From an uncultured Opitutaceae bacterium (GTDB lineage: Bacteria > Verrucomicrobiota > Verrucomicrobiia > Opitutales > Opitutaceae): DNA of 33,286 nt. Shown here one piece after another: positions 7,644-28,624 of the stretch (the stretch's first letter is position 1; the number at the start of each line of letters is the position of its first letter). Below the pieces are notes generated by a model. It was given only the letters and a program-made list of their open reading frames with translations. It searched no databases and was not told the origin of the DNA. The position numbers and the translations under genes are program-made. The stretch spans positions 1 to 33,286 of the forward strand of contig CAJBES010000032.1 of NCBI GenBank assembly GCA_903952145.1, given 5' to 3'.

Positions 7644-8924
7644 TCAGGCCAGAGTCAGCACGGCATACGTCCGCTTCCCTTTGCGCAACAGGAGGTATTG
7701 GCCGAAGAGCAGGTCGGCCGTCGTGATTGCGCGGGCAATGTCGGGGGACTTCAGGTTGTTCACGTAGATGCCACCACCCTCGATGTCCTTGCGGGCCTGA
7801 CCCTTGGAAGGCGCCAGGCCGGCGAGCACCAGCAGCTCAGTGAGCACGGTGCCGGCGCCTTCGAATTTCTTCTTCTCCAGGGCCATGGTCGGGACCTCTC
7901 CGACGACATCACGGAAGGTCTCCTCCGAGGTGTCACCGATCTCGGCGCCGAAAAGGATGTCGCTGGCCTTGAGTGCGGCGGCGAGGGCGTCGGCGCCGTG
8001 GACAAGCGTGGTCATCTCCCTAGCGAGGGCTTTCTGCGCGGCGCGGGCGCCGGGGTTGGCCTTCAACTCGGCCTCGAGCGCGGCGATTTCATCCGGCGGG
8101 AGGAAGGTGAGTGTCTTGAGGAGCTTGATGACGTCGGCGTCACTGGCATTCACAAAGAATTGGTAGAAGCGGTAGGGCGAGGTGCGCCGCGGATCGAGCC
8201 AGACAGTGCCGGTGGCGGTTTTGCCGTATTTGGTGCCGTCGGCCTTGGTGAGGAGCGGGAAAACGAGGCCCCAGGCGGTGGCGCCGAGCTTCTTGCGGGT
8301 GAGCTCGGTGCCGACAGTGATGTTGCCCCACTGGTCGGTGGCTCCGATCTGCAGCTCGCAATTGAAGGTTTTCCGCAGATGATAGAAATCAAAACCCTGC
8401 AGCAGCATGTAGCTGAACTCTGTGAAGCTGATGCCCGTGCTGCGGTCCTCCATGCGGGAGCGGACCGAGTCCTTGGCGATCATGGAGTTCACCGTGATGT
8501 GCTTGCCGATGTCACGGAGGAACTCGAGGAAGGTGACACTACCGGTCCAGTCGTAGTTGTTGACGAGCCGGGCGGGATTCCTGGTGGTGTCGAAATCAAG
8601 GAATTTGGTAAGCTGGGAGCGGATCGCGGCGATGTTGTGCGCGACCTGCTCGGGAGTCTGGAGGTTGCGTTCGTCGGATTTGCCCGAGGGATCGCCGACC
8701 ATGCCGGTGGCGCCGCCCGCCAGCACAATGGGGAGGTGGCCGTGCTGCTGGAAACGCCGGAGGGCAAACAGTGGCACGAGGTTGCCGACGTGGAGGGAGT
8801 CGGCCGTGGGATCGAAACCGCAGTAGAGCGTCGTCGGGCCCTCGGTGAGGCGCTTGGTGAGCGCTTCGCGGTCGGTGCAGTCGGCGTAGAGGCCACGCCA
8901 TTCGAGGTCTTCGATGAGGGTCAT
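7644..8924 (-). CDS. tyrS: Tyrosyl-tRNA synthetase
   Basis: Charges tRNA-Tyr with tyrosine (class I synthetase, cytoplasm). The HIGH-type motif is HVGN at residues 45-48. The KMSKS equivalent is 'KYGKT' at 232-236, the variant usual in bacterial TyrS. 'GGATGMVGDPSGKSDER' and 'LLQGFDFYHL' are further signature stretches, and a C-terminal S4-type RNA-binding region ('GGGIYVNN') closes the protein. The open frame reaches 8966, but the conserved N-terminus begins 'MTLIEDLEWRGL', so ATG 8924 was chosen, giving 426 residues. It is divergent from the peroxiredoxin gene with 191 bases between the starts. Confidence 0.96.
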   Translation of the reverse strand: MTLIEDLEWRGLYADCTDREALTKRLTEGPTTLYCGFDPTADSLHVGNLVPLFALRRFQQHGHLPIVLAGGATGMVGDPSGKSDERNLQTPEQVAHNIAAIRSQLTKFLDFDTTRNPARLVNNYDWTGSVTFLEFLRDIGKHITVNSMIAKDSVRSRMEDRSTGISFTEFSYMLLQGFDFYHLRKTFNCELQIGATDQWGNITVGTELTRKKLGATAWGLVFPLLTKADGTKYGKTATGTVWLDPRRTSPYRFYQFFVNASDADVIKLLKTLTFLPPDEIAALEAELKANPGARAAQKALAREMTTLVHGADALAAALKASDILFGAEIGDTSEETFRDVVGEVPTMALEKKKFEGAGTVLTELLVLAGLAPSKGQARKDIEGGGIYVNNLKSPDIARAITTADLLFGQYLLLRKGKRTYAVLTLA

Positions 8925-9040
8925 GATGGACGGCAGAGTTAACGGGGCGGGGCGGCCCGCGCGCAAACAAATCTTATGGGCCGCGAAACGGGAATAGAAA
9001 CACGCCTTCTTATGGTAAAAACGATTTGTCTAATGCCAAT

Positions 9041-16100: not shown

Positions 16101-17195
16101 TCAGGCGGTGATAGTTTCGAGTGAACAGCCGTCGGCTGTGACCGTGGGCATTTCGCAACTGGGCCGGGCAATGACCCCGGGGTAGGGCTCCGCGGCGAAT
16201 TCCCGGTCGGGTGTGGCCAGCAGGTGACGATCGCAGATGCCAAATAGTTCGGCACGGGTCGAGGCACGGCGCATATCGTGGAGGAAGGCCCCGTCGGCAT
16301 CGACACTCTGGCCGACAAAGTTGAGATACTTCTTCATCTTGTTCACGTGGGCGACCTCGGGGAAAGTATCGGTCTGGGTGGCGTTGAAGAGCAGCTCAAC
16401 ATAGTCACGGACCTGGGCCAGGGTGACTGGCGTGACCGGCTGGCCGGCGAAAAGAGCGCGGCACTGGCGGAAGATCCAGGGATTGCGGATGGCGTGCCGG
16501 CCGATCATGACCCCGGCCGCGCCGGTGGCGGCGAGCACGGCGGCGGCCTTGGCGGCCGAGGTGATGTTGCCGTTGGCCAGGACTGGGCAGTGGACGCGGG
16601 CGACGGCGCGCGCGATGAAATCATACCGCACCTCACTGCGATACATTTCCCTCACGGTGCGACCGTGGACGCTGAGCAGGTCCACCCGGTGGCGGTTCAC
16701 CGAATCGAGGATGCGGTCGAATTGGGCGGTGTCGTCGAAACCCAGGCGCATCTTGACGGAGAGAAGCCCTGGCACCGCGGCCCGCAGTGCGCCCAGAATT
16801 TCGTCAATCCTGGCGGGATTGCGGAGGAGTCCGCCGCCGACATTCTTTTTGTAAACCTTGGGGGCAGGGCAACCAAGGTTAAGATCAATGCCTGCGACCG
16901 GCAGGGTGAGCAGGTCCGCGATGGTGCGATTGAGATGGTGGATGTCTTCGCCGATGAGCTGCGCGAATACCGGGCGTCCGGTGGTGTTCTCCGCCAGGGA
17001 GCGGACGATATGTTTTTCCAGGCGGGACTGGGCATGGACCCGGAAAAATTCGGTGAAAAAATAGTCGGGCGCGCCGTAGTGCGCGATGACGCGCATGAAG
17101 GCGAGGTCGGTGACGTCCTGCATGGGGGCAAGGGCCGTCAACGGCTGGCCCGGGAGATGACCCGCGGGCAGGCGGGAGGGGAGGGGTACGGCCAC
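16101..17195 (-). CDS. tRNA-dihydrouridine synthase
   Basis: A 364-residue FMN enzyme that reduces specific uridines in tRNA D-loops to dihydrouridine. The TIM-barrel signature is clear: 'ALAPMQDVTDLAFM' at the N-terminus, 'FAQLIGED', the catalytic-cysteine motif 'NLGCPAPKVYKKNVGGGLL' with Cys109, 'VHGRTVREMYRSEVRYD', 'VLANGNI' and 'GVMIGRHAIRNPWIF' for FMN phosphate binding. The start is GTG 17195, because the next ATG would delete the conserved first strand. DusB-like by general character, but the subtype (A/B/C) cannot be fixed. It begins 5 bases after the stop of the BFN-domain gene, so the two are in one operon. Confidence 0.93.
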   Translation of the reverse strand: MAVPLPSRLPAGHLPGQPLTALAPMQDVTDLAFMRVIAHYGAPDYFFTEFFRVHAQSRLEKHIVRSLAENTTGRPVFAQLIGEDIHHLNRTIADLLTLPVAGIDLNLGCPAPKVYKKNVGGGLLRNPARIDEILGALRAAVPGLLSVKMRLGFDDTAQFDRILDSVNRHRVDLLSVHGRTVREMYRSEVRYDFIARAVARVHCPVLANGNITSAAKAAAVLAATGAAGVMIGRHAIRNPWIFRQCRALFAGQPVTPVTLAQVRDYVELLFNATQTDTFPEVAHVNKMKKYLNFVGQSVDADGAFLHDMRRASTRAELFGICDRHLLATPDREFAAEPYPGVIARPSCEMPTVTADGCSLETITA

Positions 17196-17200
17196 GTGGC

Positions 17201-17671
17201 TCAGGCAGACTCCTCCCCGGCTGATTCCTCGGCCTGCTGTTTGAGCACCCGGGCAAGGATTGCGCTCTTGTCCTCGACACTGTCGAACACCGGGCGCGCG
17301 ACATAGATGGGCCGTTGGTGCTGCAGGGCGAGCACGATGGAATCACTGGGCCGGGCGTCCAGCTCGACAATCTTTTTGCCGAGTTCGTTCTCCATGTGCA
17401 GCAGGATGCGGGCGTAGAACGTGCCCTCGCGGGTGTCGTTGATGACAATATGGTCGAGCGTGGCGCCAAGGCCGAGCAGGATGCTGCCGATCAGCTCGTG
17501 GGTGAGGGGCCGCTCCTTCTTGACCCCATCGAGCGTCATCCGGATCGAGTTACCGACGAATTGGTCCACATAGAAGACGAAGGTCTTGTCCGCCTGCCCG
17601 AGGAAAATGGCGCAGCCGTTGGCAGTGGGCATGGCGCCTTTGACGGTAACGAGGACGGGGTCCTTGGACAT
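17201..17671 (-). CDS. Bifunctional nuclease (BFN, DUF151) domain protein
   Basis: A 156-residue single-domain protein. The BFN/DUF151 pattern is visible in 'VFYVDQFVGNSIRMTLDG', 'ILLGLGATLDHIVIND', 'GTFYARILLHMENELGKKIVELDARPSDSIVLAL' (quoted in overlapping pieces) and the acidic C-terminal tail. Proteins of this family have reported DNase/RNase activity in plants, and mycobacterial and other bacterial members are common, but their role in bacteria is not well defined. The frame opens at 17710; ATG 17671 gives the conserved 'MSKDPVLVTVKG' start. It lies 46 bases after lpxI and 5 bases before dus on the same strand. Confidence 0.87.
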   Translation of the reverse strand: MSKDPVLVTVKGAMPTANGCAIFLGQADKTFVFYVDQFVGNSIRMTLDGVKKERPLTHELIGSILLGLGATLDHIVINDTREGTFYARILLHMENELGKKIVELDARPSDSIVLALQHQRPIYVARPVFDSVEDKSAILARVLKQQAEESAGEESA

Positions 17672-17717
17672 GGGGACAGTATAGGTTGTGTGGGCCTCGA
17701 CGCAAGCCACCGGGCGC

Positions 17718-18566
17718 TCAGGCGAAGCCGAAGAGGCTGATGCCCCAGGTGCGCGCTTGGGCGAGGACGGCGGGTTTGTCGAGCATGAGCACGCGGTCCG
17801 CCTCGAGTGCCGCGGCGGCTAGGCCGGCCTCGCGCATGGTTTCCAGCGTGCGCAGGCCGAAGCAGGGCACATCGAAGCGAAAATCCTGGCGGGCCTTGAC
17901 CGTTTTGACAAAAAGCGCACCGTCGGTCTTCAAGGTGCCGGCACGCCGCAGCATTGCATCGGTGCCTTCAAAGGCCTCGACGGCCAGCACCGTGCCCTTG
18001 CGCACCACACAGCCTTGGCCGATGTCAAGGCGGGCACATTCGCGGGCGATGTGGATGCCGTGATCCAGGTAATCCTGTTCGATGGGAAAACTGCGCCCCG
18101 TCATGCAGCCACCGGTGGCGAGGTGCTCGTCGAGAAACGCACGGGCGTCGAGTAGGGTGACGCCAATGGCTTCAATCTCAGTGGCAATGGCGCCGAAGAT
18201 TGTCTCGGCGTTGCGGCGCTTGAGCCCGAGCAGGAGGCGGGTGGTTTTGAGGTCGGGATGCAGCCCCTTGAAAAGGCGACGCGGGGTGATCTGCCCCGCC
18301 ATCAGGGCATAGCCGGCGCCAAAGTCACGGAGTGCCTTAAGCATGCGCCCAAGCTGGCCGACCAGGAGGATGCGGCGCTCTGGGTCGGGGAAAAGGGCCA
18401 CAAGCTCAGGGTGGGTCTCCTCTTCGAAACCGATGAGACGGACCGGCAGGCCGGCGCGGCGCAGCGCTTGTGCGACCAGGAGGGGGTAAGCGCCCTGGCC
18501 GGCAATCAATGCAACGGGCTGACGGGGGTTGTAATCGGCGGGCAGGAAAGCGGACACGGTGGGCAC
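17718..18566 (-). CDS. lpxI: UDP-2,3-diacylglucosamine pyrophosphatase LpxI
   Basis: Hydrolyses UDP-2,3-diacylglucosamine to lipid X and UMP in lipid A synthesis, replacing LpxH in many Gram-negative bacteria. The N-terminal 'VALIAGQGAYPLLVAQALRR' and the C-terminal catalytic-domain stretch 'VEAFEGTDAMLRRAG', followed by 'KTVKARQDFRFDVPCFG', are characteristic of LpxI (DUF1009). The open frame runs to 18761, but that would overlap the terminator and the end of the kinase gene; GTG 18566 (or GTG 18557) gives a normal length of about 282 residues. No other lipid A gene is in the window. It is the first gene of an apparent lpxI-BFN-dus operon. Confidence 0.9.
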   Translation of the reverse strand: MPTVSAFLPADYNPRQPVALIAGQGAYPLLVAQALRRAGLPVRLIGFEEETHPELVALFPDPERRILLVGQLGRMLKALRDFGAGYALMAGQITPRRLFKGLHPDLKTTRLLLGLKRRNAETIFGAIATEIEAIGVTLLDARAFLDEHLATGGCMTGRSFPIEQDYLDHGIHIARECARLDIGQGCVVRKGTVLAVEAFEGTDAMLRRAGTLKTDGALFVKTVKARQDFRFDVPCFGLRTLETMREAGLAAAALEADRVLMLDKPAVLAQARTWGISLFGFA

Positions 18567-18623: not shown

Positions 18624-18645
18624 CCGCCCCCCTAGGAGGGGGCGG
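18624..18645 (-). terminator. Rho-independent terminator of the polysaccharide export operon
   Basis: CCGCCCCC (18624-18631) pairs perfectly with GGGGGCGG (18638-18645) over a six-base loop. Read on the minus strand the hairpin starts 21 bases after the kinase stop and is followed by CTTTTGG. This is the best terminator in the window. Confidence 0.75.
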
Positions 18646-18666
18646 GGTGAAACCTTCGGGCCGGGA

Positions 18667-20849: not shown

Positions 20850-21512
20850 CTAGATCAAACGTTCGGGGACGTAGACGATGTCGCCGGGAAGCAGCACGAA
20901 GGCATCATCGGACGCCTTGGCCTTGTTCTTGCCCTTGATCAGGCTCTCCACATCCACCGTAAAGACCTGTTTGGTGCCATCGGGGTTGATGCGGGTGATG
21001 TTGACTGCGGTGCCCTTGGCGGTGTCGGTGAAACCATTGGCCTTGGTGACCAGCTCGATGACTGTCATCGTCTGCTCGATGGGGAGCACATAACGGCCCG
21101 GGCTTTTGATCTGCCCCTGAATGGAGACTTCTCGCGGGGCATAAACTTCTACCGTAATCGTGACTTGCGGGTTGCGCAGGTAACGGCCCTCGCGATAGGC
21201 TGTTTCCACGGTTGCCTGTGCTTCCGCAATGCTCAGGCCGACCACCTTGACCGATCCAAGCAATGGCAGGTTGATGGTGCCTTTCATGTCCACCCGTCCG
21301 ATGATATCGAGATCCGGTTCCTGAAAGACGCCGATGCGGATGCTGTCGTTGGTGGCGATGCGATAAATGAGGGTCTTGCGCTGATTGGTGGTTGAGGCTG
21401 CGGGTGTCTGGGCGTGAAGACTGGCGGCTGCCAGGGCCAGGCAGACGACGGCCAGCAGGCAGGCTGGCGAAGGACAACGAGGCCAGAGGAACAAGTGGCG
21501 GAGATGGCTCAT
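20850..21512 (-). CDS. Short OPX (Wza-like) polysaccharide export protein
   Basis: A 220-residue periplasmic or outer-membrane-associated protein. A signal peptide of about 35 residues ends near 'AASLHAQT'; there is no lipobox cysteine, so it is probably not a lipoprotein. Then come a Poly_export domain ('YRIATNDSIRIGVFQEPDL', 'GTINLPLLGSVKVVGLSIAEAQ') and one SLBB domain ('REVSIQGQIKSPGRYVLPIE', 'TVIELVTKANGF'). The protein stops after the SLBB region at 'LLPGDIVYVPERLI', without the C-terminal amphipathic helix by which Wza itself crosses the outer membrane. It sits between the beta-barrel gene (2-base gap) and the kinase gene, which suggests that the beta-barrel supplies the membrane channel. 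Confidence 0.9.
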   Translation of the reverse strand: MSHLRHLFLWPRCPSPACLLAVVCLALAAASLHAQTPAASTTNQRKTLIYRIATNDSIRIGVFQEPDLDIIGRVDMKGTINLPLLGSVKVVGLSIAEAQATVETAYREGRYLRNPQVTITVEVYAPREVSIQGQIKSPGRYVLPIEQTMTVIELVTKANGFTDTAKGTAVNITRINPDGTKQVFTVDVESLIKGKNKAKASDDAFVLLPGDIVYVPERLI

Positions 21513-21514
21513 GC

Positions 21515-22651
21515 TCAGAATTGCGATGACAGGTTCAGATTAAGCGAGTTGCGGGTGAAATCGGAATAAGCCAGCGTGGACCAATTTTTGAAATAGGCAT
21601 AGGTCAAGGCGATCTTGAAGTGGTCGTTCATGGTGTAGCCGGCGCCAACGTTCCAGGTCAGGAAGGTGTCCCTGCGGTCTGCGCCGGGCACGCCGAGGAA
21701 ACGGTTGATGCCATAACCGGCCCCGGCAAACAGGGCGATTTTTGCGTTCATGGCATACTGCGCGTCAAGATTGGAGGAAAGTGAGTCAATATTGAGGTTG
21801 GTCGAAGTGGTGCTGAAGTCCTTGGCCACCTGGCCGGTGAGGCTGAAACGTTTGGAGAGATTCCAAGTGACGGCTGTGGCCGCGGTGATGGCTTGGTAGT
21901 CACCCTCCGTGGTGCCGCTGGGCTGACGAATCTGGTAACCAAAACGGACAGTGCCGTTCAATTTGGGCAGAACCTTGCCTGACACGCCGACAGTAAAGGC
22001 GTGATCGTCGAAGGTGGTCGAAGCGGAAGTGTCACCGTGGCGGTAGCGGTATCCGGCGAAAAGATCGCGTTCGGATGTGTAAACGTAGAACAGGTCGAGG
22101 CTGGCCGTGTAGGTCTTCAAATCCACCAGGGAGAGGTTGTTCATGTAATCCAACATGCTGTAGCCGAAGCTGCCAGACAGGGCATAGCGCTCAATCACGG
22201 GGTATTTGAAATTGAGGCCGGCATCGTAAAGCCAGGATTCGCTGCGCAGATTGGCGGCGCTGTCCGCCCGGTTCTGGCGGGCAGCCCCAAGGGTTAGCGC
22301 ACCGGTGGTGCGGCCGGTCTGTTTGGAAAACTCAGTTCGAAACCGCGGGTTCAGCGAGTTCTCATTGGTATTGTCGACGAAGCGGGTGGCGTCGATGCCG
22401 GCGCTGCCGTTGACCGCAATGAGGCCGGCATGACGCTTGAACTCCAAGCCGAGTCCGGCGGTATAAAGGAAATCACCGCCGCTGGTGCTGTTGGCATAAA
22501 TATTTGAATCCCAGGCGAAATTTGCGTTGGCGCTGACAAAAAGTTGGTTCTTCCCATCGTTCATGCTCACGAGCGCGTGGACCGGCGGACACACCAATAG
22601 GGCGGAAAGGAGTGCGGTCAGACCGAGGCGAAGCGATGGAAAGGGGGCCAT
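21515..22651 (-). CDS. Outer-membrane beta-barrel protein of the export cassette
   Basis: A 378-residue protein with a signal peptide ending near 'CPPVHAL' and then a long series of alternating polar/hydrophobic strands with aromatic girdle residues (for example 'YTAGLGLEFKRHAGLIAV', 'YTASLDLFYVYTSERD', 'HFKIALTYAYFKNW'). It ends in 'SLNLNLSSQF' with the terminal Phe typical of BAM substrates. The strand pattern fits roughly a 16- to 18-stranded barrel, by eye. Its place between a FecR-domain gene and an OPX gene makes a polysaccharide-secretion porin the most likely role, but an anchor or adhesin is possible. It starts 20 bases after the FecR gene stop. Confidence 0.82.
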   Translation of the reverse strand: MAPFPSLRLGLTALLSALLVCPPVHALVSMNDGKNQLFVSANANFAWDSNIYANSTSGGDFLYTAGLGLEFKRHAGLIAVNGSAGIDATRFVDNTNENSLNPRFRTEFSKQTGRTTGALTLGAARQNRADSAANLRSESWLYDAGLNFKYPVIERYALSGSFGYSMLDYMNNLSLVDLKTYTASLDLFYVYTSERDLFAGYRYRHGDTSASTTFDDHAFTVGVSGKVLPKLNGTVRFGYQIRQPSGTTEGDYQAITAATAVTWNLSKRFSLTGQVAKDFSTTSTNLNIDSLSSNLDAQYAMNAKIALFAGAGYGINRFLGVPGADRRDTFLTWNVGAGYTMNDHFKIALTYAYFKNWSTLAYSDFTRNSLNLNLSSQF

Positions 22652-22671
22652 GCGCGCAAAGAGGTTGGGGT

Positions 22672-23544
22672 TCAGTTGCTGCGCGGGATGGAGGCGGCGC
22701 TGACGGTCACTTCGGGCGCGACGGCTGGCGGGGTGACTTCGACTGCGACGATTTCGTTGGTATCGGCTTCCGCGTCAAACGCGGTGATTCTGTCGTCCGC
22801 GACCCCAGCCTTCTGTTCCTTGACGTCAAAATACACAGTTTTGCGGGCCAGGCAGGCCATGGAGACCTTTTCATCCAACGATCTAATCTCGCTGGCGGGG
22901 ATGTTTTGAATGCGGATGACGCCAGCAGGGCTGATCAGGGCCTGCTGGCCCTGATTGAGCGTCTGGCCGCCGGCATCCCGGGAACCAGCCTGCACTGTGA
23001 TGGCACCCTCGAGGAGTGATACCTTCGTTCCTTCGCTGGTAACATCGATCACAGACTTGCGGCCCTTGATGCGGACGGTGGCGTGGGGTGTATTGTAATT
23101 CATGCTGGAGCCGGCCACGGGTTTGCTCGTGCACAGGCTGACCGAGCCGCGGGAAAGAAAGGTCTCCGTCGTGGAGATCGAAGGCTCGATCTCCATGTCA
23201 TTGCGGTTGGGCGTGAATGGCTCTTGGACAAACTTTTTTACTTCCAACCGCGTGGAGGGGTCGAAATAGATGCCAGTGCCATTGGACCAGACCATGGCAT
23301 TGGTCGCCTCTTCCTTGGTTTCGATCACCGTTCCTTGGGCTGTATAGACGGATTTTTTGGTCATGTCGTCAATGGTTTCGCCGGTATCGATTTGGGAGAT
23401 GCCGGATACATCAGCCACATAGAGCTTGCTGGTCGGATTTTTCTTGCGGCCTTGTGCTTCAAGACTGCCGGCACCCAGCAGGGTGATGAGGGTTGCGCAA
23501 ATGAACACCCGAGTGACTGGCAGAAGAGTCGATGAAGGTTGCAT
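22672..23544 (-). CDS. Secreted FecR-domain protein
   Basis: A 290-residue protein with a Sec signal peptide ('VFICATLITLLGAGSLEAQG'), a mid-region with repeated short beta strands, and a FecR-like segment: 'HATVRIKGRKSVIDVTSEGT' followed by 'KVSLLEGAITVQAG' and 'LNQGQQALISPAG'. Classical FecR is a membrane anti-sigma regulator, but this protein has no membrane segment other than the signal peptide and no cytoplasmic domain. It is therefore likely a periplasmic or surface binding protein that shares the fold. ATG 23544 was chosen over the upstream start at 23607 because it gives a proper signal peptide. It is first in the export cassette, 80 bases after leuS. Confidence 0.85.
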   Translation of the reverse strand: MQPSSTLLPVTRVFICATLITLLGAGSLEAQGRKKNPTSKLYVADVSGISQIDTGETIDDMTKKSVYTAQGTVIETKEEATNAMVWSNGTGIYFDPSTRLEVKKFVQEPFTPNRNDMEIEPSISTTETFLSRGSVSLCTSKPVAGSSMNYNTPHATVRIKGRKSVIDVTSEGTKVSLLEGAITVQAGSRDAGGQTLNQGQQALISPAGVIRIQNIPASEIRSLDEKVSMACLARKTVYFDVKEQKAGVADDRITAFDAEADTNEIVAVEVTPPAVAPEVTVSAASIPRSN

Positions 23545-23624: not shown

Positions 23625-26207
<2,583 letters not shown>

Positions 26208-26225: not shown

Positions 26226-27569
26226 GTGAAGTTTTCGACCCCCCGGTCAATCATGCTCAGCGCGCTGTTGTGTCTTGTGGCCTCCGCCCCGGCCGGGGCC
26301 GCCATGAAACGAGGCTTCAACCAGCTGCTCGATGCGGTGGTGCGCATCGATGTGCGCGAGGTGGAATTTGATTCCGGCACGAAACGGTTCAGTGCCAGCA
26401 TTGGCTCCGGCGTGATCCTCACGGCCGACGGCCTGGTGCTCACGAACGCCCATGTCGCCAGCCCCAACGCGGTCGAGATCAACGTGACCCTCGCCAATCT
26501 GGAACGGGTGGGCGCACGCCTGATCGGCTGGGACCATTGGACCGATCTGGCCGTGCTGCAACTTGACGCTGCGGAGGTCAGCCGGCGAAAACTGGATTTT
26601 GCCCACGCTGACTTTGGCGACAGCAGCCGGCTCTACCCCGGTCAGACAGTGTATGCGGTCGGCACGCCGCACGGGCTGACGCGCACGGTCACGCGCGGCA
26701 TCATCTCCAACCCCCGGCGATATTTCGAGGATGCGCAGGGGGTGCGCGGCTATGAAACGGGCTCTTTCAACACGTGGCTGCAAACCGATGCGGCGGTCAA
26801 TCCCGGCAATTCCGGCGGCCCGTTGATCACGGAGGAGGGGGCTGTCATCGGCATCAATTCGCGGAGCTATCTTGGTGCCGACAACCTCAGCTTCGCCATT
26901 CCCGCCGCGGTGGCCCGCCAAATCATGGCCGGGCTGGTTCGCGACGGCCGGATCACCCGCAGCTACATCGGACTGGTGCCCGGTGCGCTGCTGGATCTGG
27001 AAAATTTCTACGCCCTGAAACTCAACACCGGCATGCTCATCAACAGTGTGGACACCGGTTCTCCTGCGGCGCGGGCGGGATTGCGCGGCGGGGACATCCT
27101 GCTGGCCATCGACGGTCACAAAGTGGACGGGCGGTTCCCCGAACAACTGCCGGCGATCCAGAACCTCATCGCCAGCCAGCCCGTGGGCTCCACGCTCAGG
27201 CTCACGGTCAAGCTGGGGGCCGAGACCAGGGATTGCACCGTGACCACGGAGCAGCTCGAGAGCCGGGTGGGCGAACCCTGGGCCTTTGAAAAATGGGGTC
27301 TGAGCGTGCGTTCCGTCTCTCGCACCTACGCACGCGAGAACCAGCTCGACTCGGCGGACGGCCTGATCGTGCTCGGCGTGCAACCCGGGTTTCCCTCTGC
27401 CATCGCCGGCCTGGCCCGGGGTGACATTATCACCAAACTCAACGGCCGGCCGGTCATCTCGCTGGAGGTGGCGAAACAAATCCACACCGAATACGAGAAC
27501 AAGCCTGAGCCGACTTTGGTTGAAACCATTCGCAATCACCGCGTATCCCTCTACATCCTGAAGCCATGA
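26226..27569 (+). CDS. HtrA/DegP-family periplasmic serine protease with two PDZ domains
   Basis: A secreted trypsin-fold protease that likely degrades or holds misfolded envelope proteins. The catalytic triad is complete: His76 in 'LTNAHVA', Asp107 in 'WTDLAVL', Ser196 in 'NPGNSGGPL' (numbers from GTG 26226). Two PDZ domains follow: one around 'NTGMLINSVDTGSPAARAGL' and one around 'GLIVLGVQPGFPSAIAGLA'. The start is uncertain. The frame is open from 26133; GTG 26226 gives a clean signal peptide ('MKFSTPRSIMLSALLCLVA', cleavage near 'APAGAA') and avoids overlap with leuS, while ATG 26196 would overlap the leuS start by 12 bases. The stop overlaps the start of the next gene in an ATGA, so the two are translationally coupled. 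Confidence 0.92.
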   Translation: MKFSTPRSIMLSALLCLVASAPAGAAMKRGFNQLLDAVVRIDVREVEFDSGTKRFSASIGSGVILTADGLVLTNAHVASPNAVEINVTLANLERVGARLIGWDHWTDLAVLQLDAAEVSRRKLDFAHADFGDSSRLYPGQTVYAVGTPHGLTRTVTRGIISNPRRYFEDAQGVRGYETGSFNTWLQTDAAVNPGNSGGPLITEEGAVIGINSRSYLGADNLSFAIPAAVARQIMAGLVRDGRITRSYIGLVPGALLDLENFYALKLNTGMLINSVDTGSPAARAGLRGGDILLAIDGHKVDGRFPEQLPAIQNLIASQPVGSTLRLTVKLGAETRDCTVTTEQLESRVGEPWAFEKWGLSVRSVSRTYARENQLDSADGLIVLGVQPGFPSAIAGLARGDIITKLNGRPVISLEVAKQIHTEYENKPEPTLVETIRNHRVSLYILKP

Positions 27570-28624
27570 TGCGTCTCCTCCTATTGCTCCTTGCGTTGGT
27601 GCCGGCCGGATCCGCTGCGATGCGGGCGGCGGAACCACAGGCGTTGTGGACCGAGCGGGTGAAGTGTGTGGTTGCCGTGGAATTTTTCACCGAAACCGAG
27701 CTGGACCGCCGTCCCACCGAGGTGTTCGGAGTGGTGGCCGATGAGGCCGGCACGATCATCTTCCCGGCCATGGCGGTGAGCAACCGTGTGACCGCCGACC
27801 AACTTAAGGTCTTCCGCGTCTATCTGCCGGGTGCGCCCGTGACGGAATACTACGCCGCAGAATATCTCGGGCCGGATGAATTCACCGGCTGGCATTTCAT
27901 CCGGGTGGAGGTGAAGGCCCGCGCGCACCTGGTGCCCATCACGCGCTATGCCACGCCGGGCAACCCGGTGCCGGCGATCGCCGAGGAGCTTTGGGGCATC
28001 GGCCTGCGCAAAAAGGACGAAGACTTCGCGCCCTTTTTCCTGAGCAGCCGCGTCGCCATTATCCAACAGCTGCCGCAACGCACCGCGGTGCTCGCGCAGG
28101 ATGTGGCGGGGCAGGGCATGCCTGTGTTCAACCGCGCGGGCGGTTTTGTGGGCCTCACCGTCGGCGGCTTTGGCCAGACTTTCATGCAATTCTCCACCCG
28201 CGACCGGGGTGGCCTGCCGGTCATGATGATCAACCCGGATGAATCCAGCGCGGTGCTGTTGGCCGAGGAAATCCTCCCCCATCTCGGGCGGATCCCCCAA
28301 AACACCGCGGGCCGGCCGCTGGCCTGGCTGGGGGCCAACGGTCTGCAGCCCCTCGATCCCGAGGTGGCCGCCTTCATGAAACTCGACGCACAGGCGGGAC
28401 TGGTGGTGAGCGAGGTGCTGGAGGACAGCCCGGCGGAAAAGGCGGGACTCCGGGAGCGTGACATCATCCTGACCTTGGATGGCCGGCCCTTGCCCCTCTA
28501 CAAACCCGACCGGGTGGTCGCAGCGCATTTGGACCGCGAGATTGACCGGCACCGGCCGGGTGACCTGATCAAACTCGGGGTATTGCGTGGTGAACAAAAG
28601 CTGGAGATTACCGCCACTTTGTAG
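27566..28624 (+). CDS. Protease-like PDZ protein without catalytic triad, ended by a premature TAG
   Basis: A 352-residue product with a signal peptide ('MMRLLLLLLALVPAGSAAMRA'), a trypsin-like fold region and one PDZ domain ('QAGLVVSEVLEDSPAEKAGL'). It parallels the upstream HtrA protein but lacks the catalytic residues: no N-A-H segment is present, and the region equivalent to N-P-G-N-S-G-G-P reads 'PVFNRAGGFVGLTVG'. It is therefore probably a non-catalytic partner or chaperone. Its ATG overlaps the upstream stop (ATGA). The frame ends in TAG at 28622-28624, but the same frame continues with conserved-looking PDZ sequence to 28963, so the gene looks interrupted. The alternatives are a real stop, a pseudogene, read-through or a sequence error. 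Confidence 0.75.
   Translation: MMRLLLLLLALVPAGSAAMRAAEPQALWTERVKCVVAVEFFTETELDRRPTEVFGVVADEAGTIIFPAMAVSNRVTADQLKVFRVYLPGAPVTEYYAAEYLGPDEFTGWHFIRVEVKARAHLVPITRYATPGNPVPAIAEELWGIGLRKKDEDFAPFFLSSRVAIIQQLPQRTAVLAQDVAGQGMPVFNRAGGFVGLTVGGFGQTFMQFSTRDRGGLPVMMINPDESSAVLLAEEILPHLGRIPQNTAGRPLAWLGANGLQPLDPEVAAFMKLDAQAGLVVSEVLEDSPAEKAGLRERDIILTLDGRPLPLYKPDRVVAAHLDREIDRHRPGDLIKLGVLRGEQKLEITATL

Follow-up and report, generated by a model that had tools for sequence, protein, structure and literature searches.

The locus examined here combines a FecR-like gene with genes for an outer-membrane beta-barrel, a short OPX protein and a Wzc-type kinase, and it raises the question of whether the FecR protein belongs to the export apparatus encoded beside it, and where the polymer for such an apparatus would be made. 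The locus lies in a window of 33,286 nucleotides from an uncultured Opitutaceae bacterium, the whole stretch of DNA that we analyzed, which is contig no. 32 of a 341-contig genome (93% complete). We consider it reasonably likely that the four genes provide the outer portion and the bridge of a Wzy-type polysaccharide exporter, in which FecR would be an accessory of the barrel and the polymer would come from an unlinked synthesis locus.

Layout of the cassette and identity of its export trunk

A first, sequence-only reading of this DNA described four same-strand genes separated by gaps of 20, 2 and 20 bases. This layout was confirmed, with the genes arranged on the minus strand in the order fecR, barrel, OPX, kinase (Table 1); the interval originally given for the cassette (20850-23544) spans only the first three genes and leaves the kinase outside. 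The same reading named a strong terminator as the end of the operon. The hairpin is real, with a 9-bp stem and a folding energy of -25 kcal/mol over a 51-nt stretch (z -2.3), but its strength was not borne out: the U-tract contains 4 U only, and the hairpin is absent from a consensus scan. Since lpxI, encoded on the same strand, begins downstream at a distance of about 100 bases, closure of the four-gene operon by this hairpin is plausible only. As had been stated, glycosyltransferase, flippase and polymerase genes are absent among the window genes scanned. Upstream of leuS, the window carries a divergent trypsin/PDZ (HtrA-like) protease gene and a PDZ-domain gene (26226-28624).

Table 1. Positions of the cassette genes and their flanks in the window
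Feature	Position	Strand	Basis
fecR-like gene, 290 aa	22672..23544	-	Alignment, predicted fold, co-occurrence with barrel
Outer-membrane beta-barrel, BBP2/EpsL type, 378 aa, 18 predicted strands, C-terminal Phe (...LSSQF)	21515..22651	-	Pfam/NCBIfam, AlphaFold2 model
Short OPX protein, 220 aa, D1D2 / class 3, without Wza_C helix, without lipobox	20850..21512	-	Pfam/NCBIfam, Wza alignment
Wzc-type polysaccharide co-polymerase, tyrosine autokinase domain, Tyr-rich tail, 720 aa	18667..20829	-	Pfam/NCBIfam, structural matches
G+C-rich hairpin and TTTT between kinase and lpxI, possible weak terminator	about 18624..18646	-	Folding energy
leuS, conserved upstream flank	23625..26207	-	Profile matches and conserved order in relatives
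lpxI, conserved downstream flank	17718..18566	-	Profile matches and conserved order in relatives
Bifunctional-nuclease-domain gene and dus, further conserved downstream flank	16101..17710	-	Pfam, conserved order

The three export genes were identified by Pfam, with which NCBIfam agrees: the barrel as BBP2_2 (1e-15), the OPX protein as Poly_export (3e-20) plus SLBB, and the kinase as AAA_31/CbiA plus GNVR, the last also matching Wzc and CapA/B. Matches to Wza and related structures bore out that the OPX protein ends after its SLBB domain and lacks the membrane helix. Its residues 73-217 align to residues 99-231 of the 359-aa Wza chain, i.e. to D1-D2 and none beyond, so that the C-terminal amphipathic helix serving as the outer-membrane pore of class 1 OPX proteins is missing and the protein stops at the end of D2. 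The barrel ending in Phe, 2 bases upstream of OPX, was likewise correctly described, and the pairing of the two genes is conserved across the family.

The AlphaFold2 model of the barrel (pLDDT 89.6) has 18 strands, and AlgE gave the highest TM-scores among its best matches in the PDB (about 0.58). With the short turns presumed to face the periplasm, the periplasmic turns have a mean entropy of 1.54, against 1.86 for the outer loops (p 0.02), and are the better conserved of the two; they carry a net positive charge and include the invariant residues K110, R114 and R73. In the published model of EpsX/EpsY from Myxococcus xanthus, the docking faces are of opposite charge (PMC9601211). Homology, structure prediction and the EpsX/EpsY type in the literature lend good support to the proposal that the barrel is the channel and the short OPX protein the bridge to the kinase. 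The barrel, OPX and kinase are a composite D1D2-OPX/barrel translocon known in kind, and a trunk of a new kind is ruled out by the OPX/barrel translocons already published (PMC9601211, PMC9603273).

The likeness to EpsX/EpsY (PMC9601211) extends to a D1D2-type OPX of nearly equal length (220 aa here vs 217 aa) without an outer-membrane-spanning helix, an adjoining gene for an 18-strand AlgE-like barrel, and a Wzy-type kinase partner; the pair also resembles the class 3 OPX plus porin arrangement (PMC9603273). In contrast to the EpsX/EpsY system, the Opitutaceae OPX has no lipobox, the cassette includes an extra FecR that co-diverges with the barrel, and the four-gene unit is fixed between leuS and lpxI, unlinked from synthesis genes. 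VpsN/VpsM of Vibrio cholerae (named in PMC9601211), likened here by description only, is also a couple of short OPX and barrel, for which a FecR gene is not reported in PMC9601211 or PMC9603273. The nearest NCBIfam models for OPX and barrel are those of the XrtB/PEP-CTERM-linked EpsE/EpsL (TIGR03028/TIGR03014), and the scores fall far below the equivalog cut-offs (104 vs 262.65 bits for OPX and 39 vs 275 bits for the barrel).

A fixed site between leuS and lpxI

A search for the same four-gene order in other genomes had been suggested, and among the loci fetched the arrangement leuS-fecR-barrel-OPX-kinase-lpxI recurs in further Opitutaceae, which places the order above chance. Among 120 Opitutaceae genomes, 66 carry fecR; this gene occurs together with the barrel of the window's type (type A) in 64 of them and with OPX in 62. 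The non-carriers show various states of loss. In five genomes (G018, G054, G067, G055 and G038) leuS is joined directly to lpxI and the cassette is absent; a mere kinase scrap lies between the two genes in G059, and the barrel alone is left in G001. In G099 (locus L113, about 8111-8652) a fecR pseudogene with an in-frame TAG persists between intact leuS and lpxI, the barrel, OPX and kinase being gone, and short fecR remnants without the triad are found in G017 and G098. Loss of the triad is accompanied by loss or decay of fecR, while leuS usually still adjoins lpxI, and therefore fecR does not outlast the triad within Opitutaceae. At another locus (L179, G096:C27, near 8271-8970) we observed a FecR paralogue that resembles the cassette form and has a VISP-type tail, and no barrel or OPX was found there.

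The sequence-only reading would have been contradicted by FecR and barrel genes occurring independently of OPX/Wzc genes in related genomes, and this was seen in part. In twelve genomes of the sister families f2, f5 and f7, fecR directly follows leuS without a barrel, OPX or kinase at the locus, and lpxI comes next wherever it was located. The OPX loci fetched from genomes of these families are mostly triads of a second type (type B) without fecR. Given these fecR genes without export genes and these triads without fecR, FecR is therefore not a universal part of such trunks. Triads related to type B were found across the order, and one is present in the window's own genome (L054, contig C176, 8533-12530), without fecR and without nearby glycosyltransferases. 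We set it apart as a different system, given its identity of about 25-34%, its lack of fecR and its order-wide distribution.

In the FecR tree, the sister-family proteins form their own clade (99/98), apart from the cassette FecRs, which are grouped at 51/51 only. The tree does not settle the orthology of sister-family and cassette fecR, which rests on position. On the most economical reading, the type-A triad was added beside a leuS-neighbouring fecR in an ancestor shared by most Opitutaceae, and fecR was then tied to the barrel. The twelve sister-family genomes would also suit another scenario, in which FecR is a passenger, an old neighbour in leuS-fecR-lpxI beside which the export triad landed by chance, and has no role in export. 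We regard this as unlikely, however, because FecR decays once the triad is lost though leuS and usually lpxI remain, because the cassette FecR tail, TVS(P/A), differs from that of the sister type, mostly RPY-(E/S/Q/R)F, and because FecR within Opitutaceae diverges with the barrel and hardly with LeuS, as described below.

The FecR protein and its co-divergence with the barrel

The cassette FecR has an N-terminal secretion signal, a periplasmic FecR-type beta domain, a variable linker and a conserved C-terminal tail. Pfam recognises FecR weakly in the protein of the window, at an E of 2e-4 that does not reach the cut-off, and clearly in the long relatives (E as low as 3e-12). A FecR profile searched against the PDB found no matches; these came from the fold search alone, in which Foldseek related the predicted model (pLDDT 85) to 6ovk and 4m0h, i.e. 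to the cell-surface-signalling domain of PupR and a FecR-type anti-sigma protein. In known systems, the periplasmic domain of FecR/PupR also deals with an outer-membrane beta-barrel receptor.

This shared fold might be taken to mean that FecR is a cell-surface-signalling sensor regulating the operon, as FecR/PupR do with TonB-dependent receptors, and another FecR in the same genome is indeed encoded beside a CHASE2-adenylate cyclase. We consider a sensor role very improbable, however. The hydrophobic signal helix occupies residues 9-27 at the extreme N-terminus with nothing before it, so that the cytoplasmic anti-sigma domain is missing. The neighbours of fecR are leuS, barrel, OPX, kinase and lpxI, with no ECF sigma gene among the annotated genes nearby, and the barrel lacks the N-terminal signalling domain of a TonB receptor. 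The other FecR gene lies on contig C319 (L105, 5873-9127), where the cyclase gene is of the CHASE2-adenylate/guanylate type and a Wzy_C-type membrane protein is encoded nearby; a similar arrangement was seen at L106.

We then compared evolutionary distances among the cassette proteins. Over 18 loci, the partial distance correlation between FecR and the barrel, controlled for the other genes, is 0.89, and that between FecR and OPX is none or negative. The controlled correlations form a chain from FecR-barrel through barrel-OPX (0.35) to OPX-kinase (0.59). With LeuS as control, the FecR-barrel value is 0.84 over 36 loci, and it is 0.62 (p 2e-4) without the long FecR forms, while FecR hardly co-diverges with LeuS, its other neighbour. 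Adjacency alone is insufficient to account for the FecR-barrel correlation, because the likewise adjacent pairs leuS-fecR and barrel-OPX correlate less. Joint transfer of the neighbouring fecR and barrel genes could add to it. This strong distance correlation points to FecR as a partner of the barrel.

Five genomes have FecR forms of 783-1051 aa (L057, L058, L059, L060 and L061), located at the same site and each beside a divergent barrel with about 35% identity to that of the window. They contain Ala-rich repeats and Gly/Ser-rich stretches and, in most cases, another FecR-like region, features typical of extracellular proteins. These would suit a Wzi-like role, with FecR at the surface or in the matrix retaining or shaping the polymer once it is exported, rather than a place in the pore on its periplasmic side, and the co-divergence with the barrel would also fit passage through the barrel or docking on it. 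No known sorting signal was found in FecR, however, and its short form is a compact periplasmic-type domain, so that we judge a surface role to be improbable.

The accessory role proposed for FecR is thus supported within Opitutaceae, where FecR is present together with the barrel, decays once the triad has gone and co-diverges with the barrel, and fails as a universal feature of such trunks. As judged from genome comparison, an evolutionary association of FecR with the trunk inside this one family is well supported, and FecR is probably a new part of the export machine. The link to OPX/barrel export is new as far as the openly accessible literature shows, in which we found none (subscription papers were outside our scope). 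More tentatively, it is possible that FecR-domain proteins are dedicated subunits of beta-barrel polysaccharide exporters, each bound to the barrel in the periplasm as its gate or as an assembly factor; they would have been recruited at the leuS-lpxI site and, in certain genera, have grown by Ala-rich repeats into a component with a structural or surface role. Exporters of the composite OPX/barrel type are widespread, and so far only OPX and barrel are known as their parts; a FecR that co-diverges with the barrel and decays with the loss of export genes would be a third outer-envelope component. It would also suggest, in a form open to testing, how a wide barrel can be assembled or stay shut.

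The proposed export route and a distant synthesis locus

The computed results, namely the gene identities, fixed locus, OPX class, barrel topology, co-loss, synthesis-locus co-occurrence and FecR-barrel co-divergence, can be combined into a working model; for the physical contacts, the polymer as cargo and the exact job of FecR, we infer the following. The polymer would be made by the unlinked synthesis locus. The Wzc-like inner-membrane kinase would control chain length and hand the polymer to a periplasmic ring of D1D2-OPX, which would dock at the periplasmic face of the 18-strand barrel, the putative outer-membrane pore. FecR, exported to the periplasm, would most likely bind the barrel as an accessory devoted to it, helping in its assembly, stability or gating. 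Such an export trunk is kept family-wide, apart from its synthesis genes, and in screens that need a nearby biosynthesis gene the kinase alone would reveal it.

The expectation that the polymer genes are located elsewhere was supported in relatives, in which the cassette is accompanied by a synthesis locus unlinked to it, but no such locus was found in the window's own fragmented genome (341 contigs, 93% complete). Five of its contigs (C211, C214, C245, C280 and C319) were considered as synthesis-locus orthologues and rejected, as they gave generic PGT or GT matches only. In the relatives, the locus encodes an initiating PGT, several GTs, a hexapeptide acetyltransferase and two Wzy/ligase-like membrane proteins, without OPX or kinase. 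No Wzx was recognised in it by Pfam, and a Wzx identity for one of its genes was ruled out by a Pfam assignment as a GT4 enzyme.

A GT of the synthesis locus is present in 53 of 65 cassette carriers vs 3 of 55 non-carriers (Fisher 2e-18). The association of locus and cassette also holds in a within-genus permutation (p 2e-4); the type-B barrel as a control shows neither association (p 0.07 and 0.19). In a pair test on the LeuS tree, for which only 7 independent pairs had support, five pairs show the locus following the cassette, none shows the opposite and two show no difference (median p 0.06); the type-B control gave 0.9 vs 0.1. Among four sampled congeners of the window's organism carrying the cassette or the synthesis locus, three have both, and in G095 the locus is found on the same contig as the cassette, about 45 kb away. 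Genomes G045, G076 and G060, which each have a single OPX, contain one PGT and one Wzy_C match, both inside the synthesis locus.
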